From Paludibacter sp. (GTDB lineage: Bacteria; Bacteroidota; Bacteroidia; Bacteroidales; Paludibacteraceae), in NCBI GenBank assembly GCA_010365115.1, contig JAAFGX010000037.1, positions 1-37,333 of the forward strand: 37,333 nt of DNA, in the 5' to 3' direction. Position 1 is the stretch's first letter. Every line of letters starts with the position of its first letter. Below, piece after piece: positions 8,204 through 19,140 of this stretch. The translations under genes and the position numbers were made by a program. The notes under the pieces are model-generated. The model ran no database searches. It saw only the letters and a list, made by a program, of their open reading frames with translations, and had not been told where the DNA came from.

Positions 8204-8788
8204 TTATCTTGCTTTTTCGTACGCTTCAATTTGTACTTTTTTACTTAGCAAATAGTCGATATCGTCAAGTCCATTTACTAAACATTCCTTTTTATATGGA
8301 TTTATGTCAAATGATTCCGAATTTCCGGTTTCATTGTTTGTTATAATCTGCTTTTCCAAATCAATTGTCAAGGAAGTTGCAGGATTACTATTTACGGATG
8401 AAAATATTTCCGCCAAAAATTCTGTTGATACAACCACAGGAAGTACACCATTATTCAAAGCATTATTTTGAAAAATATCGGCAAAAAAGTTGGAAACAAC
8501 TACTTTGAATCCGTAACCATCAATTGCCCATGCAGCGTGTTCGCGGCTTGAACCCGAACCGAAATTTTTTCCGGCAACAAGAATAGAACCTTTGTACAAG
8601 GAATTATTCAACACAAAATCCGCTTTAGGGCTACCATCTTTGTTGTAACGCCAATCAGCGAAAAGATTATTTCCAAAACCTTCCTTATCTGTTGCTTTCA
8701 AAAAACGAGCGGGTATAATTTGGTCAGTATCCACATTTTCGATTGGAAGTGGAACAACCGTTGAAGTTAATTTTATAAATTTTTCCAT
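8204..8788 (-). CDS. leuD: 3-isopropylmalate dehydratase small subunit
   Basis: LeuD pairs with LeuC to isomerise 2-isopropylmalate to 3-isopropylmalate, the second leucine step. It also serves citramalate to methylmalate conversion in the isoleucine variant. The 194-residue protein has the family's [12 protein letters not shown] segment near residue 20, and the swivelling-domain motif [17 protein letters not shown], which supplies substrate-binding Ser and Arg. The C-terminal helical tail [10 protein letters not shown] is typical. In the operon it should follow leuC directly, but here a GxxExxY gene with inverted-repeat ends separates them. The ATG at 8788 is 15 bases from the inner end of that element, so its native upstream sequence has been replaced by element sequence almost up to the start. 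Confidence 0.95.
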
Positions 8789-8802
8789 TTTTCTATATGT
8801 TT

Positions 8803-9291
8803 GAACGCAAATTGCGCAAATAAACGCAAATTTGAATTCTGATTTTTAATTAAGAAAATTTCTATTATTTGAATAAACTTTCCTACTAAATTTAGCTTTC
8901 TTTCCAAAATTCAGTAAATATCCAACCTCTATTTCAGTTGCTTTCAGATAGTTTATTAATTGAGCTTTATGTGCAGTATTAAGTTCTTCACATGCTTTTA
9001 GTTCAACAATTACGCAATCTTCAACCAATAAATCAGCACGATAATCACCCACAACATGGCCATCATGATATACTTTAATCGGTTTTTCAATCTCACACTT
9101 CAAACCTTCATTTACCAATGCATAATACAATGCATTCTGATAAACTCTTTCGAGAAATCCATAACCCAAATCGTTATAAACCCGATAAAACTGTTTTAGA
9201 ATGGTATCAACCAGTTCCTGATGAACTAATCTTTCGAATTCCTGCATGTGCATTTATGGATCATTTGCGTTAACTTGCGTAATTTGCGTTC
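8803..9291 (-). mobile_element. 489-bp inverted-repeat element carrying a GxxExxY gene
   Basis: Bases 8803-8831 and 9263-9291 are inverted copies of each other, 26 of 29 positions matching. Each arm contains three CGCAA units spaced 9-10 bases apart. The only gene between them is the GxxExxY ORF. The outer base of the right arm (9291) belongs to the leuC stop codon, so the element sits exactly at the 3' end of leuC, and its other end is 14 bases before the leuD ATG. No target duplication is evident. A mobile unit is the simplest reading, but I see no transposase, so mobility is inferred. Confidence 0.65.
8846..9253 (-). CDS. GxxExxY family protein, predicted PD-(D/E)XK nuclease
   Basis: The 135-residue protein carries the name-giving motif G32-F-L-E35-R-V-Y38. 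It also has the layout of a PD-(D/E)XK nuclease core: D74 in YRADLL, E84-L-K86 in VIVELKA, then Q98 and Y102 in AQLINYLKA. All presumed catalytic residues are present, so it may be active. No biochemical role is established for the family to my knowledge. It lies between leuC and leuD, in the operon's direction, inside 29-bp inverted repeats, and has no metabolic link to leucine synthesis. A role in moving or maintaining its own element, or as a selfish nuclease, is inference. An alternative start is the second Met, three codons in. Confidence 0.85.
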   Translation of the reverse strand: MHMQEFERLVHQELVDTILKQFYRVYNDLGYGFLERVYQNALYYALVNEGLKCEIEKPIKVYHDGHVVGDYRADLLVEDCVIVELKACEELNTAHKAQLINYLKATEIEVGYLLNFGKKAKFSRKVYSNNRNFLN

Positions 9292-10781
9292 TAAGATCTT
9301 GGGTCAGTTATGCGACCTGAGATAGCTGCAGCAGCGGCAACAAGTGGACCTGCCAATATAGTACGGGCTCCCGGACCTTGACGGCCTTCAAAATTACGAT
9401 TTGAAGTTGAAACCGCATATTTTCCTGCCGGAACTTTATCATCGTTCATCGCTAAGCATGCCGAACATCCGGGTTGGCGAAGCAAGAAACCTGCTTCAGT
9501 TAAAATATCGTAAAGTCCTTCTTCACGAATTTGTTTTTCCACCATCCAACTGCCTGGAACAAGCCATGCAATAACGTTATCAGCTTTCTTTTTGCCTTTT
9601 ACATAATTGGCAAAAACACGAAAATCTTCAATACGTCCATTGGTACAACTTCCAAGAAAAACATAATCAATTGATTTCCCTTCCAATTTTTCACCGGCTG
9701 TGAAACCCATGTATTCCAAGGATTTCTGATAAGACATTCGTCCGGCTTCGTCAATTTGATCCAAAGTTGGAATTGATTCCGTAATGCCCATTCCCATACC
9801 AGGGTTTGTTCCGTAAGTAATCATAGGCTGAATATCCGACGATTCAAAAACAAGTTCTTTATCGAAACTTGCACCTTCGTCTGTTTTCAAGGTTTTCCAG
9901 TAAGTCAATTGTTTGTCCCACTCTTCTCCTTTTGGAGCAAATTCACGCCCGTTTACATAATCGAAAGTGGCTTCATCGGGTGCAATCATTCCTCCACGAG
10001 CACCCATTTCGATACTCAAATTACAAACGGTCATGCGCTCTTCCATCGACAAATTACGAATGGCTTCGCCGGCATATTCCACAAAATAACCAGTGGCACC
10101 GCCTGTTGTCAATTTCGAAATCATGTAAAGTGCTAAATCTTTAGCGGAAACGCCTTCGTTCAATTTACCATTGAAGGTAATACGCATTGTTTTCGGACGT
10201 GTTTGCAGCACACACTGAGTTGCCAATACCATTTCCACCTCACTTGTTCCAATGCCGAAAGCTATAGCTCCAAAAGCACCGTGTGTAGAAGTATGACTAT
10301 CGCCACAAACAATAGTCATACCCGGTTGAGTAAAACCATTTTCAGGACCAATGATATGAACAACACCATTTTTGATGTGTCCCAACGGATAATACAATGG
10401 CATATTGAAATATGCAGCATTTTGTGCAAATGTATCCAACTGATGACGAGAAATCGGATCTTTAACCGGTTGATCCTGATCAATAGTAGGTGTGTTATGG
10501 TCGGCAGTCATCGTCGTTTTTTCAGGACGAAACACTTTCAAACCACGAGCACGAAGTCCGTTGAATGCCTGTGGACTTGTAACTTCGTGGCAAAAATGAC
10601 GGTCGATATACAATTGAGTCGGACCGTTCTCAACAGCAGATACCACATGGGCATCCCAGATTTTATCAAAGAGGGTACTTGCCCCCCAACCAGCCCCCCA
10701 ACCCCCTGAAGGGGGAGTGGATTGCCCCCCAACCCCCTGAAGGGGGAGTGGAGAGTTCGTATTATTATTCTTGTTATTCAT
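9291..10781 (-). CDS. leuC: 3-isopropylmalate dehydratase large subunit, with repeat-derived N-terminus
   Basis: LeuC is the aconitase-type catalytic subunit of isopropylmalate isomerase. The three 4Fe-4S ligands are visible as C379 (LGSCTNG), C439 and C442 (PGCSACLAM). [13 protein letters not shown] and the C-terminal [14 protein letters not shown] segments are also typical. The family normally starts within a few residues of [12 protein letters not shown]. Here about 35 residues come first, including [10 protein letters not shown] and [14 protein letters not shown], which are translations of two tandem copies of the G/C-rich repeat at 10681-10752. No other in-frame ATG lies between 10781 and the conserved core, so the extension is probably translated. 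The TAG stop overlaps the end of the GxxExxY element. Confidence 0.95.
10681..10752. repeat. tandem copies of a G/C-rich palindromic repeat inside leuC
   Basis: Two direct copies of GCCCCCCAACCCCCTGAAGG followed by GGGAGTGG (10693-10720 and 10724-10751), plus a partial copy at 10681-10692, lie in the first 34 codons of leuC. Each copy contains the small palindrome CCCCCTGAAGGGGG. The same core recurs at 10789, 10891 (inverted), 12421 and 12503 (inverted). The insertion keeps the reading frame open. Confidence 0.85.
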
Positions 10782-16806: not shown

Positions 16807-18696
16807 ATGGCAGAAAAAAAAATGAATTTATTGGCTGAATTTCCGTCTGTTAGCACACAGCAATGGATGGACAAAGTTACAGCCGATCTCAAGGGAGCTG
16901 ACTTCAACAAAAAGCTCGTTTGGAAAACCAATGAAGGCTTCAATGTGATGCCTTTCTATCGTGCAGAGGATATTGCAAACCTCAAAACAAAAGATTCGGC
17001 TCCGGGTGTATTTCCTTTCATTCGCGGCACAAAACCGGGAAATGAGTGGTTGGTGCGTCAAGACATTGATGTAGTAAATGCTAAAGATGCAAACGCAAAA
17101 GCGTTGGACATTCTTTGCAAAGGTGCAACGTCGGTTGGGTTCAAATTGAAAAAAGCTGATTTAAGCGCCGATTTCATTGCTACTTTACTAAAAGGTATTG
17201 TCGCCGAATCATGTGAATTGAATTTTGGAATTTGTGTAAGTTCTGCTGCCGAATTGGCAACCATTCTTACCGCTTATTTCAAATCGCAAAACGCTGATGT
17301 ATCTAAATTGCACGGTTCTATCAACTTTGACCCAATGAAACGCATGTTACAGTCCGGAAAAGAGTTGACAAAAGAAGAAATTGTTGCGAAAGCAAAAGCA
17401 ACTATTGAAGCTTCAATCGGATTACCTTTTTACCGTGTAATTGGTGTAAATGCAACTGTATTGAGTAATGCCGGTGCCTTTATTGCACAAGAATTGGGTT
17501 ATTCATTGGCTTGGGGAAATGAATATCTTTCGATGATGGTGGAAGCCGGAGTTGATACTTCATTGGCAGCAAAAAAAATTAAATTCACTTACGGTGTTGG
17601 TGGGAACTACTTTATGGAAATTGCCAAATTCCGAGCCGCACGCATGTTGTGGGCGATGATTGTAGACGCTTACCAACCAGCTTGTAGAAAAGATGATTGC
17701 AAAAGTACCGAAAATGGAATTTGCAAATGTGCAGCAAAAATGCGCATTCATGCCGAAACCAGTACTTTCAACAAAACAATTTTAGATGCTAACGTAAATA
17801 TGCTTCGAACCCAAACCGAAGCTATGAGTGCAACTATCGGAGGCGTTAACTCGCTTACCGTGTTGGGTTACGATTCAATCTACAAACCTACCGACGAGTT
17901 CTCGGAACGTATCGCCCGTAACCAACAATTATTATTGAAAGAAGAATGTCATTTCGATAAAGTTTCTGATCCGGCTGCCGGTTCATACTATGTTGAAACA
18001 TTGACAAATGAAATAGCTGCTCAAGCCTGGAAATTGTTCTTAGAAGTTGAAGAACAAGGTGGATTCTTTGCTGCTATCACTTCTGGTTCTGTTCAACAAA
18101 CCATCAAAGCTACTGCAACTAACCGCTTAAAAGCTGTTTCAAGCCGTCGCGAAATTTTATTAGGAACCAATCAATTCCCAAATTTCAACGAAATTGGTGC
18201 TGAAAAAGTACAGATAGTTGAATCTGCCGATTGCGGTTGCTCGCACTCAGGAACTGAAAAGTTAATTCCGGTTCGTGCCGCCGCCGAATTTGAAGCGTTG
18301 CGCTTTGCCACCGAAGCAGCAGCTAAACGTCCAAAAGCGTTTATGTTGACAATCGGAAACTTGGCTATGCGTTTGGCTCGTGCACAGTTTTCTTGTAATT
18401 TCTTTGCTTGTGCAGGTTATGAGGTAGTTGATAACTTAGGTTTCAATACTGTTGAAGAAGGTGTAAAAGCAGCTTTGGAAGCAAATGCCGATATTATTGT
18501 TATCTGTTCAAGCGACGACGAATATGCTGAACTAGCTCCTGCTGCTTATGCATTAGCTAAAGGAAAAGCACAATTTGTAGTTGCCGGAGCGCCTGCTTGT
18601 ACCGACGATTTGAAAGCTATTGGAATTGAACATTTTGTAAATGTGAAAACCAATGTGCTTGATATGTTGAAAGCGTTTAATGCAAAATTGGTTTAA
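16807..18696 (+). CDS. mutA: methylmalonyl-CoA mutase small (beta) subunit
   Basis: MutA is the non-catalytic partner of MutB in the adenosylcobalamin-dependent interconversion of succinyl-CoA and methylmalonyl-CoA, used to make propionate or to take it up. The 629-residue protein has the mutase barrel (about 1-450), with FYRVIGVNATVLSNAGAF, MLWAMIVDAYQP and the DPAAGSYYVETLTNE segment. A degenerate C-terminal flavodoxin-like domain lacks the DxHxxG cobalamin-ligand motif, as expected. Unusual is a cysteine cluster C293, C298, C306, C308 (in DAYQPACRKDDCKS and ICKCAAKM) just before MRIHAETS, and a CGCSHSG stretch nearer the C-terminus. Its TAA stop is immediately followed by the repeat end of the four-helix-bundle element. 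Confidence 0.95.
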   Translation: MAEKKMNLLAEFPSVSTQQWMDKVTADLKGADFNKKLVWKTNEGFNVMPFYRAEDIANLKTKDSAPGVFPFIRGTKPGNEWLVRQDIDVVNAKDANAKALDILCKGATSVGFKLKKADLSADFIATLLKGIVAESCELNFGICVSSAAELATILTAYFKSQNADVSKLHGSINFDPMKRMLQSGKELTKEEIVAKAKATIEASIGLPFYRVIGVNATVLSNAGAFIAQELGYSLAWGNEYLSMMVEAGVDTSLAAKKIKFTYGVGGNYFMEIAKFRAARMLWAMIVDAYQPACRKDDCKSTENGICKCAAKMRIHAETSTFNKTILDANVNMLRTQTEAMSATIGGVNSLTVLGYDSIYKPTDEFSERIARNQQLLLKEECHFDKVSDPAAGSYYVETLTNEIAAQAWKLFLEVEEQGGFFAAITSGSVQQTIKATATNRLKAVSSRREILLGTNQFPNFNEIGAEKVQIVESADCGCSHSGTEKLIPVRAAAEFEALRFATEAAAKRPKAFMLTIGNLAMRLARAQFSCNFFACAGYEVVDNLGFNTVEEGVKAALEANADIIVICSSDDEYAELAPAAYALAKGKAQFVVAGAPACTDDLKAIGIEHFVNVKTNVLDMLKAFNAKLV

Positions 18697-19140
18697 GAAC
18701 CAAGAGTCAAGAACCAAGAGTCAAGACAAGAAAAGAGATGCATAACTTTAAGAAATTAGATATTTGGACAAGATCAATGGATTTGGCAAGTGAGATTTAT
18801 TTGCTTACAAATTCATTCCCAAATATCGAAAGGTTTTGCCTGATTTCTCAAATGCAGCGATCAGCAGTTTCAATACCTTCAAATATTGCCGAAGGTTCTG
18901 CAAAATCGAGCAATAAAGATTTTTCTCGTTTTTTGGAAATGTCAATCGGTTCTTTGTTTGAGTTAGAAACACAACTTATTTTAGCCACAAAACTAAATTA
19001 TCTTGAGTCAGTAGTTTCTATTTCAACTCAAAATAAAATCAACGAGTTACAAAAAATGATAATTGGGTTTAAAAACAAATTGGATTAAGACTAAAAGTCA
19101 GAGACAATAGTAATTGTCTTGATTCTTGGTTCTTGGTTCT
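18695..19140 (+). mobile_element. inverted-repeat element carrying a four-helix-bundle gene, between mutA and mutB
   Basis: Bases 18710-18729 (AGAACCAAGAGTCAAGACAA) and 19114-19133 are inverted copies with 19 of 20 matching. The left side is a 14-bp unit in tandem (AAGAACCAAGAGTC at 18695-18708 and 18709-18722). The right side ends in repeated TTCTTGG units reaching 19140, 14 bases before the mutB ATG. Outermost bases overlap the mutA stop codon. The only gene inside is the S23-type ORF. No transposase is seen, so mobility is inferred from structure and position. Confidence 0.6.
18738..19088 (+). CDS. four-helix-bundle protein (S23 / 23S rRNA intervening-sequence family)
   Basis: The 116-residue protein matches the family best known from ORFs inside 23S rRNA intervening sequences, and related to Avd of diversity-generating retroelements. 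[21 protein letters not shown] is helix 1, then [20 protein letters not shown] and [26 protein letters not shown], and a last helix ending [10 protein letters not shown]. The members are small, basic and oligomeric; no catalytic site is evident. It lies between mutA and mutB in their direction, yet has no link to cobalamin or propionate metabolism. Its ends are inverted repeats, so it looks like cargo of a small element. Function in this context is unknown. Confidence 0.88.

Follow-up and report, generated by a model that had tools for sequence, protein, structure and literature searches.

Insertion sequences and MITEs are short units with terminal inverted repeats, and they include gene-less derivatives. 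REP/RAYT systems and the Y1 elements of the IS200/IS605 type tie short palindromic intergenic repeats to one small protein, and free-standing PD-(D/E)XK homing endonucleases are single nuclease genes that recur at one site in many hosts. GxxExxY genes, which occur in many phyla, have no assigned role as far as we know, and we know of no GxxExxY protein for which cleavage has been demonstrated. Among the literature matches listed, with most subscription journals and the NCBIfam and Pfam description pages outside the scope of the search, none deals with terminal repeats around GxxExxY genes, and those listed for the repeat strings are unrelated papers. In the excerpts available, the GxxExxY domain is mentioned beside a reverse transcriptase. 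According to the available parts of the source, the 23S rRNA IVS of Coxiella is a selfish element of 428 nt with an S23p ORF and a 28-bp terminal stem, and has been proposed to be mobile (PMC4990558). The Rpn (YhgA-like) proteins are described in an abstract as PD-(D/E)XK nucleases whose overexpression raised RecA-independent recombination (PMC5350276).

An array-bounded GxxExxY gene between leuC and leuD

The window, i.e., the whole stretch of 37,333 nucleotides that was analysed, contains an element of 489 bp which reads, on the minus strand, as an array repeat, a GxxExxY gene and an inverted array repeat. It lies between two minus-strand ORFs that we take to be the upstream host gene leuC (9291..10781) and the downstream host gene leuD (8204..8788), names which stem from the first reading of the sequence and not from a family search. 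Sequence inspection and a repeat search place the gene-proximal (5′) terminal repeat at 9263..9291 and the distal (3′) terminal repeat at 8803..8831, and the gene for a GxxExxY/PDDEXK_3 nuclease-like protein of 135 residues lies between them at 8846..9253, all on the minus strand. The arms are inverted copies of 29 bp each, identical at 26 of the 29 positions, and each holds three CGCAA units at steps of 9 and 10 bp, exactly to the base as the earlier note had described them; a repeat-finding program widens them to 8797-8831 and 9263-9297 (35 nt, 86%). On its outer side the right arm ends with position 9291, the G of the leuC TAG, so that stop codon and repeat overlap by one base, and between the left arm and the leuD ATG there are 14 bases (8789-8802); the coordinates thus bear out the proposal of an element that begins in the leuC stop codon and ends 14 bases before leuD. 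With a score of 22.5 the arms are not a chance match, since the maximum among 2000 dinucleotide shuffles of both 350-bp flanks is 15.5. GxxExxY is the sole gene between them according to the ORF list and Pfam, and no DDE transposase is found there. As a separate observation, the predicted N-terminus of LeuC holds a stretch (10680-10751, residues 11-34, PLPLQGVGG...GWGAGWGA) that looks like an in-frame palindromic repeat and resembles a stretch in an ORF of locus L001.

By profile comparison the window protein is assigned to the GxxExxY/PDDEXK_3 family, well above both curated cut-offs: it matches PF13366 with an E-value of 8.6e-40 (136.2 bits, cut-off 22) and TIGR04256 (GxxExxY) with an E-value of 4.8e-39 (133.3 bits, cut-off 35). 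At E ≤ 0.001 no Pfam family besides PF13366 is matched in the window protein, which therefore is not an S23p four-helix-bundle ORF. The predicted PD-(D/E)XK active site is strictly conserved: in an alignment of 130 rows, in which the protein from the window is counted twice, D74 is present in 99%, E84 in 100%, K86 in 99% and Q98 in 97%, in keeping with the earlier description of a single inner gene with these four residues intact. The dN/dS values, 0.03–0.28 in the 10 computable of 12 close GxxExxY pairs, indicate that the protein has been kept working. The AlphaFold model of the window protein is confident (pLDDT 92), and its best Foldseek match in the PDB is SSO0001 (PDB entry 4ic1; E-value 6e-4), which we take to be a Cas4. 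Among 355 Foldseek matches, E ≤ 0.001 is reached by two, which are chains of SSO0001 with TM-scores of 0.54 and 0.53. Weaker matches include LHK-Exo and lambda exonuclease (E-values 0.002–0.005) and Hjc (0.017), and a sequence search of the PDB with the window protein gave a best E-value of 0.27. A role of GxxExxY proteins in defence was considered and set aside; the matches that bear on it are weak ones to Cas4 (E-value about 0.006) and one to a PHROGs endonuclease (0.012).

Terminal repeats around GxxExxY genes and a four-helix-bundle class

Whether other GxxExxY genes carry terminal repeats was a check set beforehand. A starting set of 174 open-frame matches, drawn from relatives and from a set of 80 loci spread over many phyla, was reduced to 141 distinct genes by dropping domains of less than 90 positions and identical copies, and the 131 genes (130 distinct loci) that had 200 bp or more of flanking sequence at both ends were tested for the best inverted match between the upstream and downstream flanks, with a score cut-off of at least 14. 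Inverted arms were found around 94 of the 131 genes; when flanks were swapped, 5.1% of 1048 pairs passed, a control that is inflated because some swapped pairs have a unit family in common. Among 195 control genes of the same loci (frames of 150–600 residues more than 400 bp from any GxxExxY or four-helix-bundle match) five exceed the cut-off, and the best of these, in L163, itself has array arms. The remaining 37 GxxExxY genes show no arms above the cut-off, including three of the five type B elements described below.

In a breakdown by phylum that covers 71 named loci, arms are present in 21 of 25 loci from Bacteroidota, 14 of 15 from Chloroflexota, three of four from Planctomycetota, all three from Thermodesulfobacteriota, both from Pseudomonadota, four of five unplaced loci, one of three each from Kiritimatiellota and Balneolota, one of two from Acidobacteriota and neither of two from Spirochaetota. 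Single loci are armed in Lentisphaerota, Magasanikiibacteriota and Fusobacteriota, and armless in Nitrospirota, Verrucomicrobiota, Cyanobacteriota and Omnitrophota. The genome of the window itself has four GxxExxY places, two intact, one frame-shifted and one truncated. Inspected by eye, all four have inverted arms of about three units, with a different unit at each; since the units differ, these copies do not represent a recent burst. No relatives of the window protein were found in IMG/VR or phages, and eight diverged plasmid records were retrieved; of the four examined, L217 and L219 have arms scoring at least 14, and L220 has, by eye, an array on one side only. In the fourth, a Prevotella nigrescens plasmid record (L218), the GxxExxY gene lies between similar ACAAAT units that by eye seem to be direct and not inverted. 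Extra palindrome repeats of the CCCTGCTTGCGCAGG type occur inside and outside the arms of L126, L129 and L130, which come from two Saprospiraceae and one other member of the Bacteroidota.

The units vary widely, including CGCAAAT, CGCGGAT, CACGAAG, CACATAG and CAGAATT, and both ends of an element agree. Their period of 9–10 bp in the GxxExxY arms (autocorrelation 0.43 and 0.38, against 0.28 when shuffled) is close to one helical turn. In 4050 element pairs that lack homologous flanking genes, the repeats are more similar the more identical the proteins are (Spearman 0.32; standard deviation 0.031 and maximum 0.10 in 1000 label permutations), a trend that the DNA adjoining the arms on the outside does not show (Spearman −0.03 over the 4050 pairs). 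The comparison shows, at the level of sequence, that the arms go with the protein across unrelated loci and not with the locus. Transitions among the arm mismatches comprise 100 that are compatible with RNA wobble pairing and 99 that are not, so that the arms look more like DNA sites than like an RNA stem; an IVS-like RNA-stem reading of the GxxExxY arms gains no support from this comparison. The similarity of the two arms within single leuC-leuD elements (22.7) exceeds that of arms on the same side of different elements (14.6 and 16.1; n = 19), a comparison biased by the selection of these elements for matching arms.

A sister class follows the same plan without the nuclease fold. In the window, the left array of such an element runs from the base after the TAA of a gene ending at 18696 (18697..18729, plus strand; repeat search and sequence), followed by a four-helix-bundle gene of the 23S IVS type (18738..19088, plus strand; Pfam profile PF05635) and an inverted right repeat (19114..19135, plus strand; repeat search and sequence). 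This second array-bounded element of the window, 18697-19140, is co-oriented with both neighbours. Genes of the PF05635 family occur in 33 of 40 relatives, and 54 of 72 testable ones lie between inverted arrays, against 3.5% of swapped pairs. In 48 of the 54 both neighbouring genes read in the same direction as the element gene, in one both are opposed, one case is mixed (+−) and four are incomplete, and the arm mismatches (87 wobble-compatible, 65 incompatible) lean slightly towards an RNA stem.

The architecture shared by the four-helix-bundle genes is the main objection to the nuclease as the enzyme of mobility, a part which it may not play. A serious rival explanation, though one that we regard as rather unlikely, is that the array repeats themselves are the mobile part, moved in trans by another factor or by host recombination, and that both proteins are array-binding passengers which serve protection, expression or maintenance. 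Besides the four-helix-bundle elements, pairs of inverted arrays without a gene, about 70 bp long, would fit it; they occur just past the same stop codon, that of a gene we take to be sufC, in L087, L252 and L269. Also in its favour, in the leuC-leuD gap of L059 a palindrome of about 110 bp stands on each side of the gene, and its close relative L060 has one palindrome and no gene, which on our reading reflects either loss by recombination between the copies or the state before insertion. The tracking of the protein by the repeat units across loci, the near-invariant catalytic residues of GxxExxY and the different unit periods of the two families (9–10 bp for GxxExxY, 7/14 bp for the four-helix-bundle arrays) argue against passengers. 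So do three genomes of the same genus, G003, G006 and G021 (drafts, 89–95% complete), which have one, two and three GxxExxY matches, respectively, and no detected Y1 match, so that this transposase seems dispensable; mobilisation by RAYT/Y1 is disfavoured on the same ground.

Turnover at the leuC-leuD junction and insertion at other sites

The leuC-leuD junction was surveyed in 30 genomes of the genus, including that of the window. It is empty in 11, and holds a type A GxxExxY gene in eight (in G011 on another contig, in L059 with a variant unit), a type B GxxExxY gene in five (about 56% identical to type A, with CACAC-type arms, passing the cut-off in two of the five), a four-helix-bundle gene with TGTGCCAAT arms in two and gene-less or other repeats in three; one junction is broken by a contig end. 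On a leuC tree of 29 rows, 28 of which have a state, the junction states require 15 changes, against 15.2 (standard deviation 1.1) in 300 label shuffles, and sister pairs include the window (type A) with L048 (empty). By this measure the states are random on the leuC tree, and the junction turns over. The leuC stop codon is TAA in all 11 empty hosts and TAG in six of the 10 readable hosts occupied by GxxExxY. Because arms are found around 94 of the 131 GxxExxY genes and the leuC-GxxExxY-leuD arrangement is not fixed in the genus, the minimal mobile unit proposed in the earlier note is well supported as a reading of the sequences; neither of the two findings which that note named as refuting it was observed. 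Genus-level pairs were used for the comparison of occupied and empty sites, which does not fix the joint to the base; among relatives and viral and plasmid records no strain-level pair was found, nor was a joint or an excision product seen.

It is very improbable that the element is a non-mobile operon gene, inherited stably though frequently lost, whose inverted repeats are regulatory. The recurrence of leuC-GxxExxY-leuD across Bacteroidales, in a group of 24 loci, and the correlated divergence of GxxExxY and leuC among type A elements (Spearman 0.47, nucleotide level, 153 pairs) would agree with such a gene, but the random junction states do not, and neither do the closely similar proteins that occur with matching arms at loci which are unrelated and in different phyla. 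It is also at odds with the host pair L117/L118, in which the synonymous difference is 0.22 for GxxExxY and 0.50 and 0.51 for leuC and leuD. This gap (Fisher p 1.3e-5 against leuC) is the largest of the 153 type A pairs, and in steps of 60 bp the similarity is 0.82–0.98 in the element, 0.80–0.97 in leuC and 0.72–0.90 in leuD, falling near the arms. In this one clear host pair, sequence divergence indicates that the element entered the junction separately from leuC and leuD. A smaller gap is seen in L107/L028 (34% in GxxExxY, 54 and 55% in the neighbours; p 0.002, lost on correction for 153 pairs), where the raised similarity extends past the arms into both neighbours and thus fits homologous recombination or homing and not a unit cut at its ends.

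The latter pair, with its resemblance to a co-conversion tract, leads to a further explanation, in which GxxExxY cuts an empty junction, e.g., at the 3′ end of leuC, repair copies the unit in, and the arrays are secondary, for instance regulatory sites or repair products. All 20 proteins at least 65% identical to that of the window have leuC or leuD in their locus, against none of the four at 60–65% (of 131), and the lineage of the window therefore appears to be a site specialist; a Chloroflexota group of 11 loci is likewise linked by homologous genes on both flanks. We nevertheless consider this explanation improbable. Close relatives also occur without homologous flanks, both as pairs of 82% identity (L080/L098 and L025/L074) and as six armed elements from five phyla (L159, L164, L169, L170, L173 and L179), which are 62–73% identical in the listed pairs of this kind and have arms of the AACCACGAAA/AACCACGGAA type. 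The fall of similarity near the arms in L117/L118 and the presence of three different element types at the leuC-leuD junction also argue against it.

Other operons carry insertions as well. In one that we take to be the suf operon, with genes presumably named sufB and sufC, L087 and L256 have a GxxExxY element between the first two genes and L015 has one between the next two; in L268 and L269 the first gene directly adjoins the second. A CCCCCAACCCCCTAAAGGGGG / CCCCTTTAGGGGTTAGGGG repeat family fills the putative sufB-sufC gap in L251-L255, L257, L258, L260, L266, L267 and L015. Palindromes of the form GTAGAGACGCA...TGCGTCTCTAC are found in L240 and L245 in the gap that corresponds to the L077 insertion site, where L077 and L246 hold GxxExxY elements.

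The insertions are strongly oriented. Of the 94 armed elements, 79 read in the same direction as both flanking genes and two in the direction opposite to both, with three and one in the mixed arrangements (+− and −+, respectively) and nine incomplete; the 37 armless genes are less biased (22 in sense, six opposed). The bias goes beyond the co-directional background of the GxxExxY loci (235 of 280 adjacent gene pairs), which alone predicts equal numbers in sense and opposed. Among the 84 armed elements with a co-oriented upstream gene, the arm contains or touches the upstream stop codon in 28 and begins at most 12 bp past it in 57. Selection is probably the main cause of the sense, intercistronic placement: an insertion would have to leave intact the stop codon, the ribosome-binding site that follows and translation along the operon, and the GxxExxY gene would probably be expressed by read-through. 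No excess of target duplications is observed, with direct repeats of at least 5 bp at 16 of the 94 elements against 24.2 expected; the element ends were taken from local alignments, and a duplication of 2–4 bp could escape. No common target motif was found among the elements.

Proposed mechanism and comparison with known systems

The reading preferred here, to which we give a nearly even chance, is a minimal mobile element whose GxxExxY protein binds and cuts the arrays and whose unit is joined by host repair. At each end, GxxExxY proteins would line up on the same face of the helix, bound to units spaced by 9–10 bp, pair the two ends and cut there; host repair would then join the liberated or copied unit into a break, leaving no target duplication. 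Like a homing element, the lineage at leuC-leuD re-enters the same site in new hosts, and other GxxExxY lineages reach new sites as well. Recognition of the terminal repeats by the nuclease, as suggested in the earlier note, gains indirect support from the covariation of repeat and protein; that it cuts the arms is what we infer. Spread without a classical transposase fits the sole gene, the lack of a detected target duplication and the occurrence of GxxExxY in three Y1-less genomes. The element-specific unit, the oriented insertion usually near stop codons and the four-helix-bundle elements, one of them in the window, were missing from that first account.

More broadly, these units look like a little-noticed class of mobile elements without a known transposase, with similar units in many bacterial phyla. 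A more tentative proposal is that they form a cross-phylum class whose sole mobility enzyme would be one PD-(D/E)XK protein that reads the co-diversifying arrays at both ends, with in-sense insertion at stop codons of operon genes without duplication and with a sister class of the four-helix-bundle/IVS type. If GxxExxY proteins are mobility nucleases of half-kilobase elements, a large orphan family would gain a function, and a very small DNA-mobility system would be at hand with its specificity in a short unit that co-varies with the protein, a recognition code readable by comparison. Such elements would account for much odd spacer DNA within operons of these bacteria. The old puzzle of the 23S rRNA IVS would be tied to a general phenomenon and, if the sister-class reading is true, the IVS would be a special case of a much larger intercistronic mobile population.

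As far as the available parts of the source go, the Coxiella IVS resembles the window element in having one small ORF between terminal inverted repeats, and its four-helix-bundle family is that of the sibling elements described here (PMC4990558). IVSs differ in that they lie in 23S rRNA genes and are removed from the RNA by RNase III, whereas the window element is found within a protein operon, with iterated units and a PD-(D/E)XK-type protein, and belongs to a kind without wobble bias. Rpn proteins share the PD-(D/E)XK assignment, a proposed role in gene acquisition and, for one paralog, a reported independent insertion at the same place, but belong to a different Pfam family (PF04754), and their abstract makes no mention of terminal repeats (PMC5350276). 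Unlike insertion sequences and MITEs, the window element has no DDE transposase and no detected target duplication, and its iterated units are element-specific. It also lacks the Y1 domain of the REP/RAYT and IS200/IS605 systems, and elements of its kind persist in genomes without detected Y1. Compared with free-standing homing endonucleases, GxxExxY is bounded by array repeats and has relatives at unrelated sites as well; confinement to one site holds true for the leuC-leuD lineage (20/20), but not for other close relatives.
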